This document shows positions 174 through 40,264 of a stretch of DNA of 42,091 nt, piece after piece; the stretch's first letter is position 1, and each line of letters begins with the position of its first letter. The notes below the pieces were generated by a model. It did not search any database and had not been told where the DNA came from. It saw nothing but the letters and a program-made list of their open reading frames with translations. This DNA is from a virus, in the IMG/VR virus record IMGVR_UViG_3300032157_000025, positions 1 to 42,091 of that record; one strand, written 5' to 3'. Made by a program: the position numbers and the translations under genes.

Positions 174-915
174 TCAAAAATTGCTGACCAATACCTCAAC
201 TTTCCTCTTGCCCGCAATCGGACTCGCTGAAAGCTGCTTATCGAAATACCGGACAGTCCATTTGTGCCGTTTGATCGCGGCTTCGAGTATATCGGATCGA
301 TAGTTACTTAGCAAGAACTTCCCCTTAATTTTTGAAAGCAGGCTCAAGAGCTCGTTCAGGTCCGCATCAGTGTACCCGGAATAGTGGCCCATGTTGGATC
401 CTGAATACGGCGGATCGACGTAGTGAAAGGTCTTCGATCTGAGCTCTTTCTAACCTAGTTCGAATCGCTCTGTCAAACTCAACCTTTTTCGTTTCCAGCC
501 GGTTGACCATCGACTTCCCCTGCTTGTCATAACCCCACGATCCAATCTTGGCCACATATCCCTGGTTAGTCAGGATCCAGAAGGCCCAGGCTCGTTTCAC
601 CGGATCAAATAGTTTTGGGTTATTGTAGACGACCATGGCCTGCTCATACTGCTCCCGGCTGTGAAGCGTGGCTTGCACTAGCTCATTCAAACGCCAGAAG
701 TCGGTCGTTAGAACCGAGTAGAAATTGACCACCTCTCCGTTCAGGTCGTTAATGATTTCTACCTCGGAAGGCGGCTTCTCGAAGAAGATCGCTCCTCCGC
801 CGAAGAATGCCTCTGTGTAAATTTTGTGTGGTGGAATTAACGGCACGATGTGACGCGCCATCATTTGTTTGCCTCCGTAATACGTTATCGGAGTTCTGAT
901 TTTAGATCTCGACAT
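174..915 (-). pseudogene. DNA adenine methylase (D12 class), frameshifted
   Basis: Two minus-strand frames together make one Dam-like N6-adenine methyltransferase. The first frame (915 to about 430) has the N-terminal TPITYYGGKQ motif that binds S-adenosylmethionine, followed by TEAFFGGGA. The second frame (about 430 to 174) holds the catalytic box FHYVDPPYSGSN and the C-terminal part. The frames change near 425-445. The stretch that normally separates the QIE strand from DPPY is also short by roughly ten to twenty residues, so a small deletion plus frameshift is likely. It lies downstream of the tail operon at the phage end, where Mu carries its own modification gene. A sequencing error cannot be excluded, but it would not explain the missing residues. 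Confidence 0.75.
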
Positions 916-3112: not shown

Positions 3113-3997
3113 TTATGGTTCTGGTTCAGGGACAATGTTTACCGTTGCATTGCAAAAGTTAACAGTGTCAGCAAGTGTGCCAACAAACTGCCCGTTGATA
3201 TAGATGCCAGGATCTGGCTCCTCCGGAGGACCTGGCGGAAGTATCGACTCAATCCAATCGTAAATAGATTGCCCGTTTAAATTGTTCGCATCAGCCTTAT
3301 AAACCTTTTCCCAGGTTGATTTGCTGTGAGTACCGGATGCGAGCACTACCTTCTGGATATCGTAGTAAGCCTTCAGATAACCATTGACTACTTGTGCATG
3401 AGCGATGATCGTGTTCGAGGTATAGTAGCTGTCGCTTGGACCCCAGAATATTTTCACCGGTATCTTCCTGGTACCGCATGCCTTGCCTGTGTTGAAGTTT
3501 GTATTTGCAGGAGCGACAGCAATCGCCGCATAGATGTCGTTGTTAATGTTGTCGCTTGACCCACCAGTCCACAGAGCTCCATCACCGCCCATACTGAAGC
3601 CGGTCAGGATAATTTTATCGATGTGATAAACTTGTCGAACTTCTTCGATGAACGGAATGACAAGGCCACGCGATCCATTCTGTCCTTGATACCCGTTTTT
3701 ACTCGCTGATTGTTGTGGCGCTAAAACAATGTAGGGCAATTCGAGCCCGCCTTCATTTCCCTCAAGGTAGTATGGCAAGCACTCTGTCCGAAGTTTGTTC
3801 AGATCGGAAGGACTTCCAGTTCCTCCTTTGCCGGAGCTGTGCAGACTGATGATGCAGTGATAGGTCTTCTCGGGATCATAATCGTCAGGAAGGTATTCAA
3901 GATACCCTCGGCCTGAAGATGTCTTCTTTGCTACACCTGCCTGGCCGAACGCAAAACCTGCGATCAGCACAAAGGAAAGTAAAAAAACATTTTTCAT
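3113..3997 (-). CDS. Secreted alpha/beta-hydrolase (esterase-like)
   Basis: The 294-residue product starts with a Sec signal peptide (MKNVFLLSFVLIAGFAFGQ) with probable cleavage near residue 19. The mature part is an alpha/beta hydrolase: the nucleophile elbow GFSMGGDGA is clear, an oxyanion-type strand IISLHSSGKGG precedes it, and a late ASGTHSKSTW supplies a candidate catalytic His. The fold resembles PHB-depolymerase or feruloyl/acetyl-xylan esterases. A proline-rich linker (PPGPPEEPDPG) leads to a short C-terminal extension. The gene sits in the tail operon, so it could remove acyl groups from surface glycans during adsorption, or act as an exported lysogenic function. The substrate is unknown. 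Confidence 0.7.
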   Translation of the reverse strand: MKNVFLLSFVLIAGFAFGQAGVAKKTSSGRGYLEYLPDDYDPEKTYHCIISLHSSGKGGTGSPSDLNKLRTECLPYYLEGNEGGLELPYIVLAPQQSASKNGYQGQNGSRGLVIPFIEEVRQVYHIDKIILTGFSMGGDGALWTGGSSDNINNDIYAAIAVAPANTNFNTGKACGTRKIPVKIFWGPSDSYYTSNTIIAHAQVVNGYLKAYYDIQKVVLASGTHSKSTWEKVYKADANNLNGQSIYDWIESILPPGPPEEPDPGIYINGQFVGTLADTVNFCNATVNIVPEPEP

Positions 3998-29383: not shown

Positions 29384-29858
29384 ATCCGTTCTTGATCATT
29401 GGTAAAATCTCTTCGATGTTTTCGTAAATATCCGGGAGCTTGATCCGGTTCCGGTGGTAGTCATTGAGGCGGTTCCAGTGCTCCTGGGTAAACAGGAACT
29501 CCATCGCCCGAAGCACATCCTCGTCGGTGTGCGGCTTGGCGTTGCTCTTCATAAAGTCGCGCATGAAGTTGATGATGCCCTTCATCGCCTGGCTATAGAA
29601 AATGGCTTTCTTTCCACTCATGTCAAGGTGGCTATCTCGGCCTTTTAGGAACTGCCGGTAGATGCCGAAGCACGAATTATACAGGCTGTTATCCGGCTTC
29701 TCCGCCCCCTCATCAGTGCTCCTTCGAACACCCTTAGAATTGGCTTTGATGACGTCAACTTTGATGGCAGTGATTACATCCGGGTCAGTCACTGCCATGG
29801 GCCGCAGCTTGTAGCGGTCCAGTAACTCAACTTTCTGTTCGTAGGTTATTTTGCTCAT
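29292..29858 (-). CDS. Hypothetical protein downstream of the DGR reverse transcriptase
   Basis: This 188-residue protein is helical and polar, with no membrane segment. A conserved-looking NSLYNSCFGIYRQFLKGRDS and a C-terminal basic tail (RIKNKRHTSGAPEA) are visible. It overlaps the next gene by 92 nt and the previous by 4 nt, so it is in one transcript with the reverse transcriptase. Function is not recognised. Confidence 0.45.
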   Translation of the reverse strand: MSKITYEQKVELLDRYKLRPMAVTDPDVITAIKVDVIKANSKGVRRSTDEGAEKPDNSLYNSCFGIYRQFLKGRDSHLDMSGKKAIFYSQAMKGIINFMRDFMKSNAKPHTDEDVLRAMEFLFTQEHWNRLNDYHRNRIKLPDIYENIEEILPMIKNGYDKRTASKNNLDNLESRIKNKRHTSGAPEA

Positions 29859-30151
29859 GTGAACTCGTAGTAGTCGTTATCTCCTTTGATAGTAGTCACA
29901 AATGGGAATTTATCATCCGGTACGCGACCGATTTGATCGATCAATGTCTTGGAACCGGTGAACACAATACGCTTCTCTCCCGACTTCTCGATTTGCAGCG
30001 TGAGTAGTAGGGTATCCTTCTTCTGCTTGGAGGGTTCGATCTTGAATGCGAGCACCTTGATTTGCAGGTTGAACAGCTTCTGCACTTGGATCTTCTCGCC
30101 GACGAAGCTATTTACCTTCGGTTTGATGTTGAAGTCTTTAAAGTTGTTCAT
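29855..30151 (-). CDS. Small beta-rich protein next to the reverse transcriptase
   Basis: This 98-residue protein has alternating strands (VQKLFNLQIKVLAFKIEPSK, then KDTLLLTLQIEKSGEKRIVF), and it ends GDNDYYEFT. It resembles an OB-like small fold that could bind single-stranded nucleic acid. Start and the reverse transcriptase stop overlap by 14 nt, which points to coupled translation. It may be a DGR accessory factor, but it is not the usual Avd helical bundle. Confidence 0.45.
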   Translation of the reverse strand: MNNFKDFNIKPKVNSFVGEKIQVQKLFNLQIKVLAFKIEPSKQKKDTLLLTLQIEKSGEKRIVFTGSKTLIDQIGRVPDDKFPFVTTIKGDNDYYEFT

Positions 30152-31136
30152 TGCTCAGAAGTTTTTTGGTAAGGTGTTTCGCGTTGCAATGGCCCAGCCA
30201 GCCGAGATAGGACGGCTTGGAAGCGTGATCCGGGTTACGGGCAAGCTTTCGTGCGAAGTTCTTTTTGATTTGCTTCCTGAGCTTCACATGGGTATGAAAG
30301 AAAACATACCCAATGAAGTCAATGCCGCGAGCATCAACCGGAAACACCTGGTGATTTTCTTTAACCGACAGCTTCAGGTGTGATAGGTGGGTTTTAATGT
30401 CACAGAGCAGAGCGTGGAGGTTGTCCTTGTTGCTGTCCAGGATCACCAGATCATCCGCATATCGGTAATAATACTTTACCCGTTTGGTCTCCTTGATCCA
30501 ATGGTCAAAGTACGACAGGTAGAAGTTGGCAAGATACTGGCTAAGGTAGTTGCCTATCGGCAGACCAGGAGCACTGTCGATTATTTCATCCAGGAGCCAT
30601 AGGAGATTGTTGTCCTTGAACTTTCTGCGTAGCAGCGCTTTGAGAACATCATGGTCAATGCTGGGATAGTACTTTTTGATATCCAGCTTCAAACAGTATT
30701 GCGTTCCAGCAACGTCTTGCAGATCATTCCTTAGTCTGTTGAGAAGAAGGTGTATTCCACGCTTCTTTATACAGCTGTACGTGTCGGAGGTGAAGGTCCT
30801 GACGAAGATTGGCTCCAGCACATTCATGATGGCGTGGTGAGTTATCCGGTCCGGGAAATATGGCAAACGATATACGGTCCGCTCCTTGGGTTCGTAGATC
30901 GTGAAAATGTCGTAAGGTGATGTTGTGTAAGTCTTGCTGATGAGCATATCCTGCAACTTCAGCAGGTTGCTTTCGGCGTTGCGCCTATGGAGCAACACTC
31001 CGTATTGTTTTGATTTACCGAGTTGAGCCTTCCTGTCAGCTTCCTGAAGGTTAGCGAGGCTGGTTATCTTTTCGAATATGTTGCCTATCCTTTTCAATTT
31101 GTCCAGAACTTGGTTCGATCGTCGTTCAGCATCCAT
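30138..31136 (-). CDS. DGR-type reverse transcriptase
   Basis: The 332-residue enzyme has a retroelement reverse-transcriptase palm: LDIKKYYPSID with Asp152, GLPIGNYLSQ (residues 191-200), and YADD (226-229), then LSVKENHQVF and GIDFIGYVFF. The SQ of the fourth motif is characteristic of DGR enzymes, which copy the template RNA with errors at adenines. The N-terminus KRIGNIFEKITSLANL is also typical. It sits just downstream of a template repeat and two variable repeats. The ATG overlaps the upstream zinc-ribbon gene by 43 nt. Confidence 0.92.
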   Translation of the reverse strand: MDAERRSNQVLDKLKRIGNIFEKITSLANLQEADRKAQLGKSKQYGVLLHRRNAESNLLKLQDMLISKTYTTSPYDIFTIYEPKERTVYRLPYFPDRITHHAIMNVLEPIFVRTFTSDTYSCIKKRGIHLLLNRLRNDLQDVAGTQYCLKLDIKKYYPSIDHDVLKALLRRKFKDNNLLWLLDEIIDSAPGLPIGNYLSQYLANFYLSYFDHWIKETKRVKYYYRYADDLVILDSNKDNLHALLCDIKTHLSHLKLSVKENHQVFPVDARGIDFIGYVFFHTHVKLRKQIKKNFARKLARNPDHASKPSYLGWLGHCNAKHLTKKLLSNEQL

Positions 31137-31294
31137 GTAACTCCACCGGGTCCACTCCTGTAAAATTCTCCGGTTACGATGATCTTGATTCGCTCAGCCC
31201 GGACCATTTCTTTATGGCCGCATTGGTCACATTTTTCCGGGTAGCCTTTCTTGCTATCGGTGGCTCCATTACATTTTGTGCATCTGTAATACAT
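31094..31294 (-). CDS. Small zinc-ribbon protein between template repeat and reverse transcriptase
   Basis: The ATG at 31294 gives 66 residues; a TTG 90 nt upstream would extend it to 96. Two knuckles, CTKC and CDQC, separated by about 17 residues (with a GYPEK linker) make a zinc ribbon. A basic middle (GHKEMVRAERIKIIV) follows. The gene overlaps the reverse transcriptase start by 43 nt. It could be a nucleic-acid-binding DGR accessory protein. Function is unproven. Confidence 0.55.
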   Translation of the reverse strand: MYYRCTKCNGATDSKKGYPEKCDQCGHKEMVRAERIKIIVTGEFYRSGPGGVTWMLNDDRTKFWTN

Positions 31295-31413
31295 GGTCGG
31301 TTGCTTTTTATTCCTTTGCTTGTCATAAGTCACCTTCCCATTGCGGTACCAGCGCCTTAGATGTTGATCGTTATGTTTTGCCAAGTGGCACGGCCTGCGG
31401 CGGCATTGTCTTC

Positions 31414-31491
31414 AGCATAGGTGAGAGCTGACATTCGAATTCGAATTCCAATTATCGTAGTCGTTGAACTGAAAGCCGGACGAACCGCCCA
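31414..31491 (-). ncRNA. DGR template repeat (TR)
   Basis: This 78-nt segment aligns without gaps to the two variable repeats at 31590-31667 and 31970-32047. Each variable copy differs at 13 positions, and every one is an adenine in the TR coding sense (a T on the plus strand). The TR has 17 adenines; 14 differ in at least one copy. In the variable frame it would read with five Asn AAC/AAT codons, the usual design for wide substitution. It lies in a non-coding gap between the first target gene and the zinc-ribbon gene. Confidence 0.93.
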
Positions 31492-31515
31492 ACCACCGCA
31501 CAGCCTATTTGCTTT

Positions 31516-31902
31516 TTACATTACGAAGTAATCCTTGTACAGCCCTTCGAAGGTCTTGCCTACATGGTCAGCCACTTCGTAAGAAACAAAGCAAAGGCGA
31601 GAGCCGACAGCCGAAAGCGAATACCAATAATCGCAGACGTCGAACCGAAAGCCGGACGAACCGCCCATCTCAAACCAAGGGTAGTACTTGTTCTGTGTGT
31701 ACTTGTTCCAGTTTGGTTTCCACTCCTTCCCCTTGTTGGCGATCTTGTTTGCCGCCCTGGCGATGATCACCAGCTTGGCGTGTGCGACCAGTGCTTTCTG
31801 GTCCTGTTTAGGATAGCCTGCGAAGTCAGGTACTACCTTTTTCGGATCGAGACGCAGGACCTCGCAAGCATCTTCGAATGTGGTAAGTTGTTCGATTTTC
31901 AT
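31516..31902 (-). CDS. DGR variable protein 1
   Basis: This 128-residue target protein has an N-terminal helical part (TTFEDACEVLRLDPKKVV, then a KLVIIARAANKIANKGKEW helix). The C-terminal diversified domain has KYYPWFEMGGSSGFRF, then variable residues, then SAVGSRLCF. Residues about 80-104 come from the variable repeat. No signal peptide or membrane helix is seen, and it is far smaller than lectin-type DGR tail proteins. It overlaps the upstream paralogue as ATGA, so both are co-translated. It probably binds variable ligands through a compact lectin-like surface. The ligand is unknown. Confidence 0.85.
   Translation of the reverse strand: MKIEQLTTFEDACEVLRLDPKKVVPDFAGYPKQDQKALVAHAKLVIIARAANKIANKGKEWKPNWNKYTQNKYYPWFEMGGSSGFRFDVCDYWYSLSAVGSRLCFVSYEVADHVGKTFEGLYKDYFVM
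31590..31667 (-). repeat. DGR variable repeat VR1
   Basis: This 78-nt segment is 65/78 identical to the template repeat. The 13 differences are all at TR adenines. The invariant coding-strand 5' part is GGGCGGTTCGTCCGGCTTTC. In the protein the five Asn codons of the template are replaced by Asp, Tyr, Tyr, Leu and Ala. Confidence 0.93.
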
Positions 31903-32345
31903 ATCATGAATTGTTTGTAGGTGTCAGTAAACTGATTGGCGGCATATTCAGCCAGCTCGCGAGATTTGAAGCAAAGGCGAGAGCCGACAGACGAAAGCGA
32001 ATGCCAATAACCGCAGTCGTAGAACCGAAAGCCGGACGAACCGCCCATGTAGAACCAAGGATAGTACTTGTATTGGTTATCGTTGTTCCAATCAGGTGTC
32101 CACCCTTCGTTGAGTGACTTGGCCAACATCTTCAGGATTTGATAGGCTACCTCGTCTTTTTCGAGGTCTTCGGTTCGTGCGTTGAATGCCTCCTGGGTGA
32201 GGCCGTTGTCGGCGAGTACATCAGCAACGGTCTTAATCCGCTCCGTTAACTTCTTAGGTTTTTCCTTGAACCTGATTTCGCCGGTGTTCTGATCGAATGT
32301 ATCAACCAGATATCCTTCGGGGATGTTGATGGTGAGTGTTTTCAT
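31899..32345 (-). CDS. DGR variable protein 2
   Basis: This 148-residue paralogue has an extra N-terminal strand-rich segment (KTLTINIPEGYLVDTFDQ, then GEIRFKEKPKKLTERI). It then has the same C-terminal domain: KYYPWFYMGGSSGFRF, then variable residues, then SSVGSRLCFKSRELAEYA. Residues about 100-126 derive from the variable repeat. Five template Asn codons appear as Tyr, Tyr, His, Leu and Ser. Like its partner it lacks export signals. It is first in the DGR operon, so the order is VP2-VP1-TR-zinc ribbon-RT. Confidence 0.85.
   Translation of the reverse strand: MKTLTINIPEGYLVDTFDQNTGEIRFKEKPKKLTERIKTVADVLADNGLTQEAFNARTEDLEKDEVAYQILKMLAKSLNEGWTPDWNNDNQYKYYPWFYMGGSSGFRFYDCGYWHSLSSVGSRLCFKSRELAEYAANQFTDTYKQFMI
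31970..32047 (-). repeat. DGR variable repeat VR2
   Basis: This 78-nt copy is also 65/78 identical to the template, again with all 13 differences at TR adenines. It differs from VR1 at only five positions, so the two variable copies share many substitutions. Confidence 0.93.
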
Positions 32346-32352
32346 TTTTCTT

Positions 32353-32727
32353 TTATTGTTTGAGTTGCTTGTTATACCACTGCTTGACCATGCTTACGCA
32401 CTTGTTAAGCTCAGCGAGTGAAAGTCTGTTCAATGGCTTGTTGTTCATTTTGTTTTTTACCCACTCGTCTATCTTCTCGTAGTTGGGATCTCCCGTAACT
32501 GTCTTGTAGTCGTATCCAGGCATGATGCACAGGTAGTGAATAACTGCTCCGCGAGGTCGCTTGCTTCTGCTGTTCCACTCGCGCTGAACGTAGTCAACGA
32601 GTTCCTCCTGCTTCTGAATAGACAAGTGCTTAAAACTTGTCACACCGTGTGGCCTCAAAACTTCATAATAATTCCACCCCAAAAGATTGAGCAGGAACCA
32701 GAAGCGTTGAAGTGGTGTAACTGGCAT
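32353..32727 (-). CDS. GemA/Mu gp16-like protein
   Basis: The 124-residue protein has RFWFLLNLLGWNYYEVLRPH, VQREWNSRSKRPRGAVIHYL and a C-terminal LNRLSLAELNKCVSMVKQWY. This helical end fits DUF1018/GemA proteins of Mu-like phages, which affect DNA topology-linked gene expression. Location in the early/middle block between Gam and the DGR agrees with gp16. The match is by pattern only, so confidence is moderate. Confidence 0.45.
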   Translation of the reverse strand: MPVTPLQRFWFLLNLLGWNYYEVLRPHGVTSFKHLSIQKQEELVDYVQREWNSRSKRPRGAVIHYLCIMPGYDYKTVTGDPNYEKIDEWVKNKMNNKPLNRLSLAELNKCVSMVKQWYNKQLKQ

Positions 32728-37024: not shown

Positions 37025-37990
37025 TTACGCAGCTTTCATTTTGAGGTTAACGTTGCAGTACAGCTCTACCAGGTCGAGCACATTGCGCTTGCTGTGATCA
37101 GCTTCGCGAAGCACCTTCTCGATCATTGATGTGAGTTGTGCGGTATTGCGGCACCTGTCGAACATAGCCTTCACGTGCTGCTTGCTGGTAATGCCATACG
37201 ACTTGCAGATAGTGATCGCATCATCAACACTCAGCTGGAAGAGCTGAACGAATCCACCTTCACGCATCCTCCGGAGGACCTGCGGAAAGCAGCCTTTCAT
37301 TTTGTCGGCTTTCTTCTGCAGCTGCCGCTCGAAGTCATTGGCACCGATGAACACGATGCCCGTGTAGCCCTTCAGGTCATCCATCACTCGCTTCAAACTT
37401 TCCCAGGCGCGATCCTTCAGGTTCTCCGCCTCGTCGATGATCAGCAGCGCATCGGTCTCGTTCTTGAGTTTGTGAATGACATTCTTCCGGATATCATAGA
37501 TAGGTCCGGCTGGCGTCATTCCGAGAGAATAGGCCAGCTCAACGAAGAAGCTCTTTGCAGTCAGATCTCCATCGCATCGCACGTAGTAGCTGTTCTTCGG
37601 ATTGGAGCGGATGTACTCAATAGCGCTGTAGCTTTTTCCTTCGCCGGTAGCTCCATCGATAGCATAGGGCATCTTGCTGTCACGCGCATCGCTAAAGGTT
37701 GTTGCGCACATCAGGAAATTGTCGGTATCGTGATGCTTACGATAGCTCTTCCGAACTGTGAAGTTGATGGAGCGGGCGATGCGCATAAAATACTTGTCAT
37801 CGATTGGAGTATGCTTTGCTCCGGTCACAAACTTTCCTTTCAGCATGTCATTGAGGTAAGCCACCGAGAAACCCTGGCCACCGTTCATCTTTTTGACATG
37901 CTCGCTGAAAGCATCCTGGCTGAGGCTGTTGCCCTCCATGTAACTGCGGGTCGCCTCCATGATTTGTTGTTTTGTGCTTCTGTCAATCAT
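37025..37990 (-). CDS. MuB-like transposition ATPase
   Basis: The 321-residue protein has an N-terminal region that may bind DNA (residues 1-60). A AAA+ core follows, with Walker A GATGEGKS (113-120) and Walker B LLIIDEAEN (182-190), then IVFIGANDFERQLQK (sensor 1) and a C-terminal helical part. MuB selects target DNA and activates MuA. It lies downstream of the transposase gene, as in Mu. Confidence 0.85.
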   Translation of the reverse strand: MIDRSTKQQIMEATRSYMEGNSLSQDAFSEHVKKMNGGQGFSVAYLNDMLKGKFVTGAKHTPIDDKYFMRIARSINFTVRKSYRKHHDTDNFLMCATTFSDARDSKMPYAIDGATGEGKSYSAIEYIRSNPKNSYYVRCDGDLTAKSFFVELAYSLGMTPAGPIYDIRKNVIHKLKNETDALLIIDEAENLKDRAWESLKRVMDDLKGYTGIVFIGANDFERQLQKKADKMKGCFPQVLRRMREGGFVQLFQLSVDDAITICKSYGITSKQHVKAMFDRCRNTAQLTSMIEKVLREADHSKRNVLDLVELYCNVNLKMKAA

Positions 37991-38011
37991 AATTGAAAAT
38001 TGGTTTGATGG

Positions 38012-40264
38012 TTAAATAAGTCCGTTACGTTTGGCCTTGTCGCGAACATGCTCGCGCCGTTCATCGTCAAGGCCTTTCTGTTGCTTTTTGCTCACCGGTA
38101 CCGCTTCGCCATTAGCGCGCAGCAGACGGTCTTCGTAGTAGTTGTTGGTTAGTTTTGCGTTGGGTGTTGCTAGGGCATCCTCGAACAATTCCTCTGGAGT
38201 GATCTCCTTCATGCCGGCAATAACTTCGTGCGCCTCCTGGATCGATAGGTTGCTGATATCAATGCCGAGTTGTGAAGCTTCAAACTCCAGCACCTTGCGG
38301 CTGACATCACCGATCCGCTCTACAGCCTTTTTCCGGTTCGATGTCATCTCTCCAAGCAGCTGCAGATCTTCACGGGTTTGCTCGGCTTTCGCTCTTGCCA
38401 TCCGATTCAATTTTCCAAGTGTACCGATGTACTGATCATTCTCGCCAAACACGTCTATGGTGCTCATGTCCATCTCGTCGAAGTACACCTTCACGCGATA
38501 CCCTTTGATCATGGAGTGAACGTGCTGATCGAATTCAGGGAAGGCGTATTCGTACAGCCTCCGGTTTACTTCGAACGAGATCTTCGCGTTCCGTACCGTC
38601 ACCATCGTGCTCTGGTTTAATAGCATTGAAATGTTCTCGCGGGGGATTAGCGGAGCATTCGGGTTAAGGTTATCAAGGCATGTTTGCATGCGGCTGGATT
38701 GGCGATTGTACACATCGTTGTTGTAGATGTTAACCAGGTCGATGATCTGTTTCACGCTCTCGGTATAGCCTTCGATAAAATTGCCGCTGCGATAATCCGG
38801 ATTCGGCTTCCGGTTCTTATCGATGCTGGTAATATTGGTCCCTTTCCATCCGGGGAAGTTCTGGGTGAGTCTGTTCAGCTCCAGGATAAGGCGCTCCACG
38901 AAGCGAGACTTCGGGTTTGGCGCCTTACCTTCAGGATCATTTGGGGTTGGTTGTGAAATGTACTGACAAGTCTTTTCGAATATCGTCCTTGTGTCGTCTG
39001 TCAAGTTTCCGCTGAACCGGTCGCTTTCTATCTCAATGAAGCTACGGCCACCCATCAGGTTGAGGTGATTCCTGTACATGTTGCGTACCATTAATCCATC
39101 CTCGACCATGCCAACATCAAAGCCGGTTATCGCTTCGCTCATGTAGTCGAAAACTGCCACAACAGTTAGCATGAACTGCTTGCCTGGGATCTTCGTATTG
39201 AAGTCCACCTGGAAGCCGTCGTAACCTCCCTTGCTGAGCGAGTACTGATATCCCTTGCCATAAACATGCGGCAACATCTTGTCCAGTTCTGCCCATCCGT
39301 GACGTTCTCGTTTGGTGAATAGTGCTACCTCGTTGGAGCAAAGAAATTCTTTCACGGCAGAGATCTCTACTTCCGGTTTGCGCTCAGCCTTCTTGCATTC
39401 GTATTCGTACCGGCGATAGATGTTCTCGAAATCGTACTTGTTGGCCCGGCCTGGATTCATGAACAGGTACACCAGGGTTCGGGCATTCCATTCGCTGAAA
39501 TCGATTCTGCCGGAGGGAAGAAGTATTCTGTCGCCTTCGTTGACGTTGAGTTTACCAAGCACCCGGCGATGATTGTTCCCAAAGTTCTCATGCACTAGAG
39601 TTGAAAGTGCAGCCTCGTTTGCCAGCCGGTCGCGTTCAATCTTGCTCTCCGATTTATGCTTTTCGCTTTCAGTCTCGAAGGCGTTGAACCATTCCAGCTC
39701 CTTGCGCTGTAACACCGTGGCGTTTGTGATTTTGAATCCGTATAGGTGAGCCTTATTACGCTTGAAGTCAGAATACAATTGCTCAACCACAGCCTTGCGC
39801 AGATCTGCCTTTGTGTTGAAGTTAATCGTGCGGGTTTCTTTCGGCGTGCGATATTGGTTCAGGAGGCGGAGCCATCCTGCTGCTTGCTTGAGATCCTCCG
39901 CTTTGGTTTGTGATGCGGTGCGTTTTAGAAAGAAGTGGTAGTCGCTGATCAGGCAGTTACGCGCGTGAAGATCTGCGAGCGAATAGCAGGCTTCTTCGTA
40001 GATGTTGAGCTGCGCCTCGGTAGTGTTGGCCTGGCTTAACTTAACCAGCTCGGCTCGCGATGGTAACTTCGACTTTGTTGCCTCCGGAAGAGAATCAAAA
40101 TCGACAAGCTTAATACGCTTATCTGATTCGTGGCTCTTGTGCTTCCAGGTAGGAATCTGGCCATTACGATTTCGGATTAAACCGCTTTTGATTGTGTTAT
40201 CTGATATCCCAAACCTTGTCAACTCAGACACAAAAAGCCACACCTTGTTGTTCTCTAAAATCAT
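38012..40264 (-). CDS. MuA-like DDE transposase
   Basis: This 750-residue protein has an N-terminal DNA-binding part (SELTRFGISDNTIKSGLIRN). A catalytic core has VDFNT (Asp354), ESDRFSGN (Asp415) and SRFVERLILELNR (Glu457), the DDE triad. A C-terminal beta-barrel and a basic tail follow (KQQKGLDDERREHVRDKAKR). It binds the phage end repeats and joins them to target DNA. Length exceeds MuA (663 residues). It is separated from a lipoprotein metallopeptidase gene by 11 nt. Confidence 0.9.
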   Translation of the reverse strand: MILENNKVWLFVSELTRFGISDNTIKSGLIRNRNGQIPTWKHKSHESDKRIKLVDFDSLPEATKSKLPSRAELVKLSQANTTEAQLNIYEEACYSLADLHARNCLISDYHFFLKRTASQTKAEDLKQAAGWLRLLNQYRTPKETRTINFNTKADLRKAVVEQLYSDFKRNKAHLYGFKITNATVLQRKELEWFNAFETESEKHKSESKIERDRLANEAALSTLVHENFGNNHRRVLGKLNVNEGDRILLPSGRIDFSEWNARTLVYLFMNPGRANKYDFENIYRRYEYECKKAERKPEVEISAVKEFLCSNEVALFTKRERHGWAELDKMLPHVYGKGYQYSLSKGGYDGFQVDFNTKIPGKQFMLTVVAVFDYMSEAITGFDVGMVEDGLMVRNMYRNHLNLMGGRSFIEIESDRFSGNLTDDTRTIFEKTCQYISQPTPNDPEGKAPNPKSRFVERLILELNRLTQNFPGWKGTNITSIDKNRKPNPDYRSGNFIEGYTESVKQIIDLVNIYNNDVYNRQSSRMQTCLDNLNPNAPLIPRENISMLLNQSTMVTVRNAKISFEVNRRLYEYAFPEFDQHVHSMIKGYRVKVYFDEMDMSTIDVFGENDQYIGTLGKLNRMARAKAEQTREDLQLLGEMTSNRKKAVERIGDVSRKVLEFEASQLGIDISNLSIQEAHEVIAGMKEITPEELFEDALATPNAKLTNNYYEDRLLRANGEAVPVSKKQQKGLDDERREHVRDKAKRNGLI

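Follow-up and report, generated by a model that had tools for sequence, protein, structure and literature searches.

Phage diversity-generating retroelements (DGRs) are almost exclusively interpreted as tropism switches, and according to the global catalogue of Roux et al. 2021 most viral DGR targets are tail proteins (PMC8144416). The locus described here raises the question of what such an element diversifies when its variable repeats lie in small genes of a phage early region, and of how it tells its template from its targets. It belongs to IMG/VR record IMGVR_UViG_3300032157_000025, the whole of which (42,091 nt) was analyzed and is termed the window. We consider it quite probable that the locus is a DGR of a recently active lineage, situated in the early region of a Mu-like phage, with intracellular small-protein targets, flank marks and an OB-like accessory protein. 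A bolder reading is put forward only tentatively, in which a widespread DGR lineage goes without tail diversification, varies intracellular early proteins exclusively, homes by distinct rules (with CAG/CGG marks flanking the tract on either side and without a hairpin) and employs an OB-fold accessory that replaces Avd. DGRs as a kind were already known, as were the remote second variable repeats of LoVEphage and BT-TP2, which lie in homologues of the present targets. New here are targets confined to the early region, flank marks on two sides, the lack of a hairpin, and an OB-like gene coupled to the reverse transcriptase, none of which the sequence-only reading of the locus had noticed. A literature search of openly available article texts found nothing specific to this lineage, and the lineage probably falls inside the set of the Roux et al. 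2021 catalogue.

Methods

Relatives of the reverse transcriptase (RT) were collected as 80 per query from viral contigs and 80 from genomes, the latter mostly of Bacteroidota with some Ignavibacteria and Clostridia. A set of 353 unique pairs of template repeat (TR) and variable repeat (VR) was assembled from 194 loci. Strains were compared through targets from different loci that had their TR in common and were at least 90% identical outside the VR; some of these pairs, such as L031/L238, may represent one isolate or one population sampled twice. Positions with a sign are counted from the first base of the V codon in VGSRL (coordinate 0), which places the random core at about -36 to -2.

Organization of the cassette

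In the transcribed direction, the cassette consists of target B (148 aa), target A (128 aa), the TR, a zinc-ribbon ORF, the RT and a 98-aa ORF. The RT gene (30138..31136, minus strand) encodes 332 aa in an intact reading frame, with an RVT_1 domain and a match to phrog_1423. Its product is 34% identical to the bRT of BPP-1 over 310 aa (E 3e-51) and contains GLPIGNYLSQ (LPIGN) and YADD, as the sequence-only reading had stated for this adjacent gene. Judged by homology and motifs, the enzyme is a DGR-type RT.

The TR (31414..31491, minus strand) is non-coding and lies between target A and the RT gene. VR1 (31590..31667, minus strand) lies in target A and VR2 (31970..32047, minus strand) in target B. 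All three repeats are 78 nt long, align without gaps and have the minus strand as coding sense. Each VR carries 13 mismatches to the TR, all at TR adenines, precisely as first read; with 17 adenines among the 78 TR positions, the probability of 13 out of 13 by chance is about 1.1e-11 per copy. VR1 and VR2 carry different bases at five TR-adenine positions (27, 31, 37, 45 and 57), the number given in the earlier reading, and they have nine substitutions in common, identical in site and base (22, 34, 39, 51, 52, 58, 63, 70 and 74). Because four of these nine (22, 63, 70 and 74) hardly vary, if at all, throughout the lineage, only nine mismatches per VR look like random adenine mutagenesis. A scan of both strands of the whole window, tail genes included, found no further VR.

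A DGR-type RT, and a TR with VRs in coding genes whose mismatches fall on TR adenines, are thus present in the window, and adenine-directed variation among close relatives was found in the relatives of this phage. The cassette is a genuine DGR of a recently active lineage, and as such of an established kind. The earlier reading described the element as complete; by the standards of BPP-1, completeness was not established, no Avd having been found.

Activity of the lineage

The layout target-target-TR-RT is common to RT relatives in many Bacteroidota phages. Across the 353 pairs, core TR adenines were read in the VR as A (2030), G (1563), T (1081) or C (627). The pair finder extends across mismatches at A only, so that adenine bias is better judged from the unconditioned position table and the strain comparison. 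In the former, non-A mismatches were almost absent at core positions. In the latter, near-identical pairs had changed at 253 of 378 TR-adenine core sites as against 3 of 678 other core sites, with 10 of 672 flank sites and 304 of 7128 sites outside the VR also changed. Five locus pairs (e.g. L044/L045, L168/L175 and L171/L172) had no differences outside the VR and 9-13 changed adenine sites. The lineage is adenine-directed and recently active, as seen in the relatives from RT homology, their adenine-only mismatches and the near-identical pairs. The sequence-only reading was exposed to two findings, changes off TR adenines and a lack of VR variation in related strains; examined in relatives, it was not refuted. 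Its description of the system as active holds for the lineage, by the VR variation of relatives, while this phage is represented by a single copy.

That the repeats are fossils of a degenerate DGR, dead in this phage, seems to us hardly credible. Such a view could point to the missing Avd and to the fact that this exact phage has been sampled once, but the RT frame is intact with its YADD motif, both target frames are open and the relatives are active. By the established DGR pathway, the TR transcript would be copied by the error-prone RT, adenines would be misread during copying, and the cDNA would replace the core of each VR. At one related locus (L066), two VRs of one TR lie in a single fused open frame of 292 aa, a double target protein.

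Genome context

The window contains MuB-like (37025-37990, phrog_296) and MuA-like transposase (38012-40264, phrog_310) genes as a pair on the minus strand (37025..40264), together with a contractile-tail structural module. The structural genes, at about 0.4-26 kb, include those for terminase, portal, head protease, major head protein, tail sheath (phrog_907), tape measure and a tail-fibre-like protein. The virus is a Mu-like, contractile-tailed Bacteroidota phage. The targets lie away from the structural module and directly downstream of a GemA-like early gene (32353..32727, minus strand; PF06252, E 8e-4, under the curated cut-off). The far left end of the window carries a phage DNA methyltransferase gene (367-915, minus strand; phrog_56, E 5e-38). 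On the tail side, a putative esterase (3113-3997, minus strand; PF00756, just over the cut-off) perhaps acts on host-surface polysaccharide.

Target proteins

Target A (P0001, 128 aa; 31516..31902, minus strand) continues for about 23 codons after VR1, and its start is overlapped by 4 nt by the end of its paralogue, target B (P0002, 148 aa; 31899..32345, minus strand). Both fall into PHROG 11581, which is annotated without function (phrog_11581, E 1e-18 for A and 6e-23 for B). A Pfam scan and a profile search assigned neither to a Pfam family, hydropathy revealed no transmembrane or signal-like segment, and profile searches against PDB and Pfam returned nothing usable. The AF2 model of target B (pLDDT 87) is confident in the N-terminal part and the C-terminal helices, and leaves the VR segment (about 51) without confident structure. 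Foldseek with this model gave no match in the PDB and, in BFVD, only uncharacterized phage proteins. As to a C-type lectin fold, AF2 does not model the VR with confidence, and there was no PDB match by fold or by profile.

Both targets appear to be paralogous, small, early-region, non-tail proteins and the sole DGR targets here: no tail VR was found in the window, which does contain tape-measure, sheath and tail-fibre genes. In the records of 18 relatives (36-51 kb), target homologues occurred in a single cassette only, with two or three genes and a TR trace. LoVEphage (PMC8525569) has a remote second VR in a homologue of the window's targets (HHalign E 1e-21; L320:33016-33600, minus strand), and its TR feeds both a tail protein beside the RT and this distant gene, whose surroundings include DNA methyltransferases. 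BT-TP2 (PMC12629997) likewise has a remote second VR in a homologue, an unannotated gene that spans both ends of its record (L319). Remote second VRs near counter-defence genes have been described in four prophage species (PMC12629997). In LoVEphage and BT-TP2 one TR also serves a tail-side protein, whereas this phage has no targets other than the small early proteins; the family is thus a recurrent second DGR target and here the sole one.

The targets could instead be minor virion or receptor-binding parts, in which case the DGR would serve host tropism as in BPP-1. Most known viral targets being tail proteins (PMC8144416), and the LoVEphage TR feeding one as well, this has precedent, but we regard it as distinctly unlikely: the targets are small and without a tail domain, they sit beside the GemA-like gene, apart from the structural module, and the LoVEphage and BT-TP2 homologues are additional to a tail-side target and lie in early or methyltransferase regions. 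Neither gene position nor the absence of a signal is proof that virions lack the targets, whose role is probably intracellular. We favor small cytoplasmic, non-virion products whose variable face, by the logic of other DGRs, would bind a changing intracellular partner, of which a host defence factor or a protein of a rival phage would be likeliest. If so, targeted hypermutation also serves phages within the cells that they infect, with defences or rival phages as plausible opponents.

Fixed differences in the flanks

The four constant or near-constant substitutions lie in the flanks of the random core. TR position 22, at the variable-core border (31470..31470, minus strand), reads CAG in the TR and CGG in both VRs. 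On the 3' side (31418..31429, minus strand), AGC, CAC and CTA at TR positions 63, 70 and 74 become GGC, CGC and CTT in the VR; these are constant in relatives. Position 22 (-38) is not strictly fixed (28 G, 2 A, 2 T). The fixed 3' differences at +3, +10 and +14 recur in nearly all relatives and were compared with IMH/IMH*, and +14 is nearly always T in the VR whatever the TR base.

Across the lineage, flank CAG in the TR corresponds to CGG in the VR in 465 of 478 cases on the 5' side and 330 of 332 on the 3' side, and flank CAC to CGC in 277 of 278. Conversion thus lies at 97-100%, even at synonymous sites; four-fold synonymous flank adenines are G in 173 of 190 cases. Core CAG and CAC, unlike those of the flanks, have mixed outcomes. 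Since the flank counts come from related sequences and are not independent, a better argument for the rule is that CAG marks recur at various positions and in all three reading frames. Some TRs already have CGG on the 5' side. Where the TR has CAG at -51, TR and VR agree in 68 of 68 cases at six of the seven positions within -60 to -54, while the A of the mark itself is G in all 68 VRs. At most of the matching positions the TR has changed several times independently on the RT tree; the seventh position, -57, is in some TRs a mark of its own.

The constant VR flanks, with CGG/CGC against CAG/CAC in the TR, would distinguish the recipient from the donor on either side of the tract. By analogy with IMH/IMH*, which acts at one end in BPP-1, the most likely role of these candidate marks is as donor and recipient signs. 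A serious rival, though on balance rather unlikely, is that they have no special function and that the RT reads A before G as G by slippage. A slippage context bias has been proposed for BPP-1 bRT (PMC12875486), AG becomes GG in 503 of 527 cases in 5' flanks, and TR and VR are homogenized at positions beyond the A, which is itself invariably G in the VR. Yet core CAG gave 5 A, 5 G and 4 T, albeit in small numbers, +10 CAC goes to CGC in 277 of 278 cases against the expectation from slippage, and conversion near 100% is far over the rates reported for bRT. The mixed core outcomes led us to reject pure neighbour context as the cause; G.T wobble tolerance was also rejected, as TR C/VR T differences were not enriched.

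It is unlikely that the flanks are never copied and the VR just preserves an ancestral G. Only 10 of 672 flank sites changed in recently diversified pairs, as this would predict, but TR changes outside CAG are matched in the VR (the 68 of 68 cases above), so that copying extends across the mark, at least on an evolutionary time scale. Still less probable is that selection on Gly and Arg residues of the targets maintains the differences. The substitution at +3 does give Gly and that at +10 the Arg of the near-invariant GSR motif, and selection there is possible. Against it stand the four-fold synonymous adenines, the marks in all three frames, and +14, which is T in the VR though all CTN codons encode Leu. 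For the 5' marks the synonymous sites and the use of all frames contradict residue selection, and it is ruled out as the full cause of the A-to-G differences. We favor donor and recipient marks, with the RT context effect as the serious rival; neither explains everything. The flank rule makes the distinction between donor and recipient accessible to study at the level of sequence. It was absent from all four known systems checked (BPP-1, hankyphage p00, LoVEphage and BT-TP2). Two NCGG motifs 6-8 nt apart were also present in 208 of 269 unique VR 5' flanks, and the 3' flank has TCGG/TCGC 7 nt apart; these NCGG and TCGG/TCGC motifs are partly constrained by coding.

Candidate accessory genes and comparison with known systems

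The 98-aa protein, a candidate accessory (29855..30151, minus strand), overlaps the RT gene by 14 nt. Its gene directly follows that of the RT in 257 of 305 loci with room for it. All 28 newly fetched loci retrieved with the protein also have an RT upstream; being close relatives, they speak for synteny, not function. The AF2 model (pLDDT 91) has the order strand-strand-strand-helix-strand-strand, and its Foldseek matches are weak (best E 0.025, most >0.1), with several OB domains among them. On this model the protein is OB-like; it probably handles RNA or cDNA, may do so as a substitute for Avd, and is a testable candidate for an RT-coupled accessory. Avd itself was sought by phmmer with the BPP-1 protein, an insensitive search given that Avd diverges fast, and no relative was found in the window or in the relatives' loci; NCBIfam and Pfam scans of neighbouring genes were negative for it as well. 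The zinc-ribbon ORF between TR and RT (31094..31384, minus strand, TTG start) was rejected as an accessory, having a homologue in one relative only (L023), and probably lies outside the cassette proper. In three other close relatives (L004, L006 and L017), TR and RT are likewise about 400-500 nt apart, with no match to this ORF.

A hairpin or cruciform of BPP-1 type 3' of the VR was sought with a search that recovered the BPP-1 hairpin itself, and no perfect stem of at least 6 bp was present in 305 of 351 cases (325 of 351 when shuffled). The BPP-1 DGR (mtd/avd/TR/brt; AY029185) is alike in its homologous RT (34%), in a TR upstream of the RT, in adenine-specific TR/VR differences and in a TR 3' end that differs from the VR in a short fixed stretch (IMH/IMH*). 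Its Avd, single tail target, 8-bp GAAA hairpin after the VR and mixed IMH* differences were not found here; this cassette has instead two targets in the early region, and CAG/CGG marks in either flank. Hankyphage p00 (BK010646; PMC6199706) is also a Mu-like transposable Bacteroidota phage with a DGR, but its VR lies in a 6.7-kb tail-region gene, its TR and VR measure 116 nt, and its flanks lack the CAG/CGG rule. The VRs of the Roux et al. 2021 catalogue, as here, lie near the C terminus (PMC8144416).

Error spectrum

The lineage supplies hundreds of natural TR/VR pairs from which the RT error spectrum can be read. In the core of all pairs, stratified by position, A-to-C was rarer before C than before T (37 seen as against 99 expected, p 3e-20, a value inflated by the relatedness of the sequences). 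This depletion (NAC) holds although NCC and NCT encode the same residue, and it is opposite to the A-to-C context rule reported for BPP-1 bRT in E. coli (PMC12875486).
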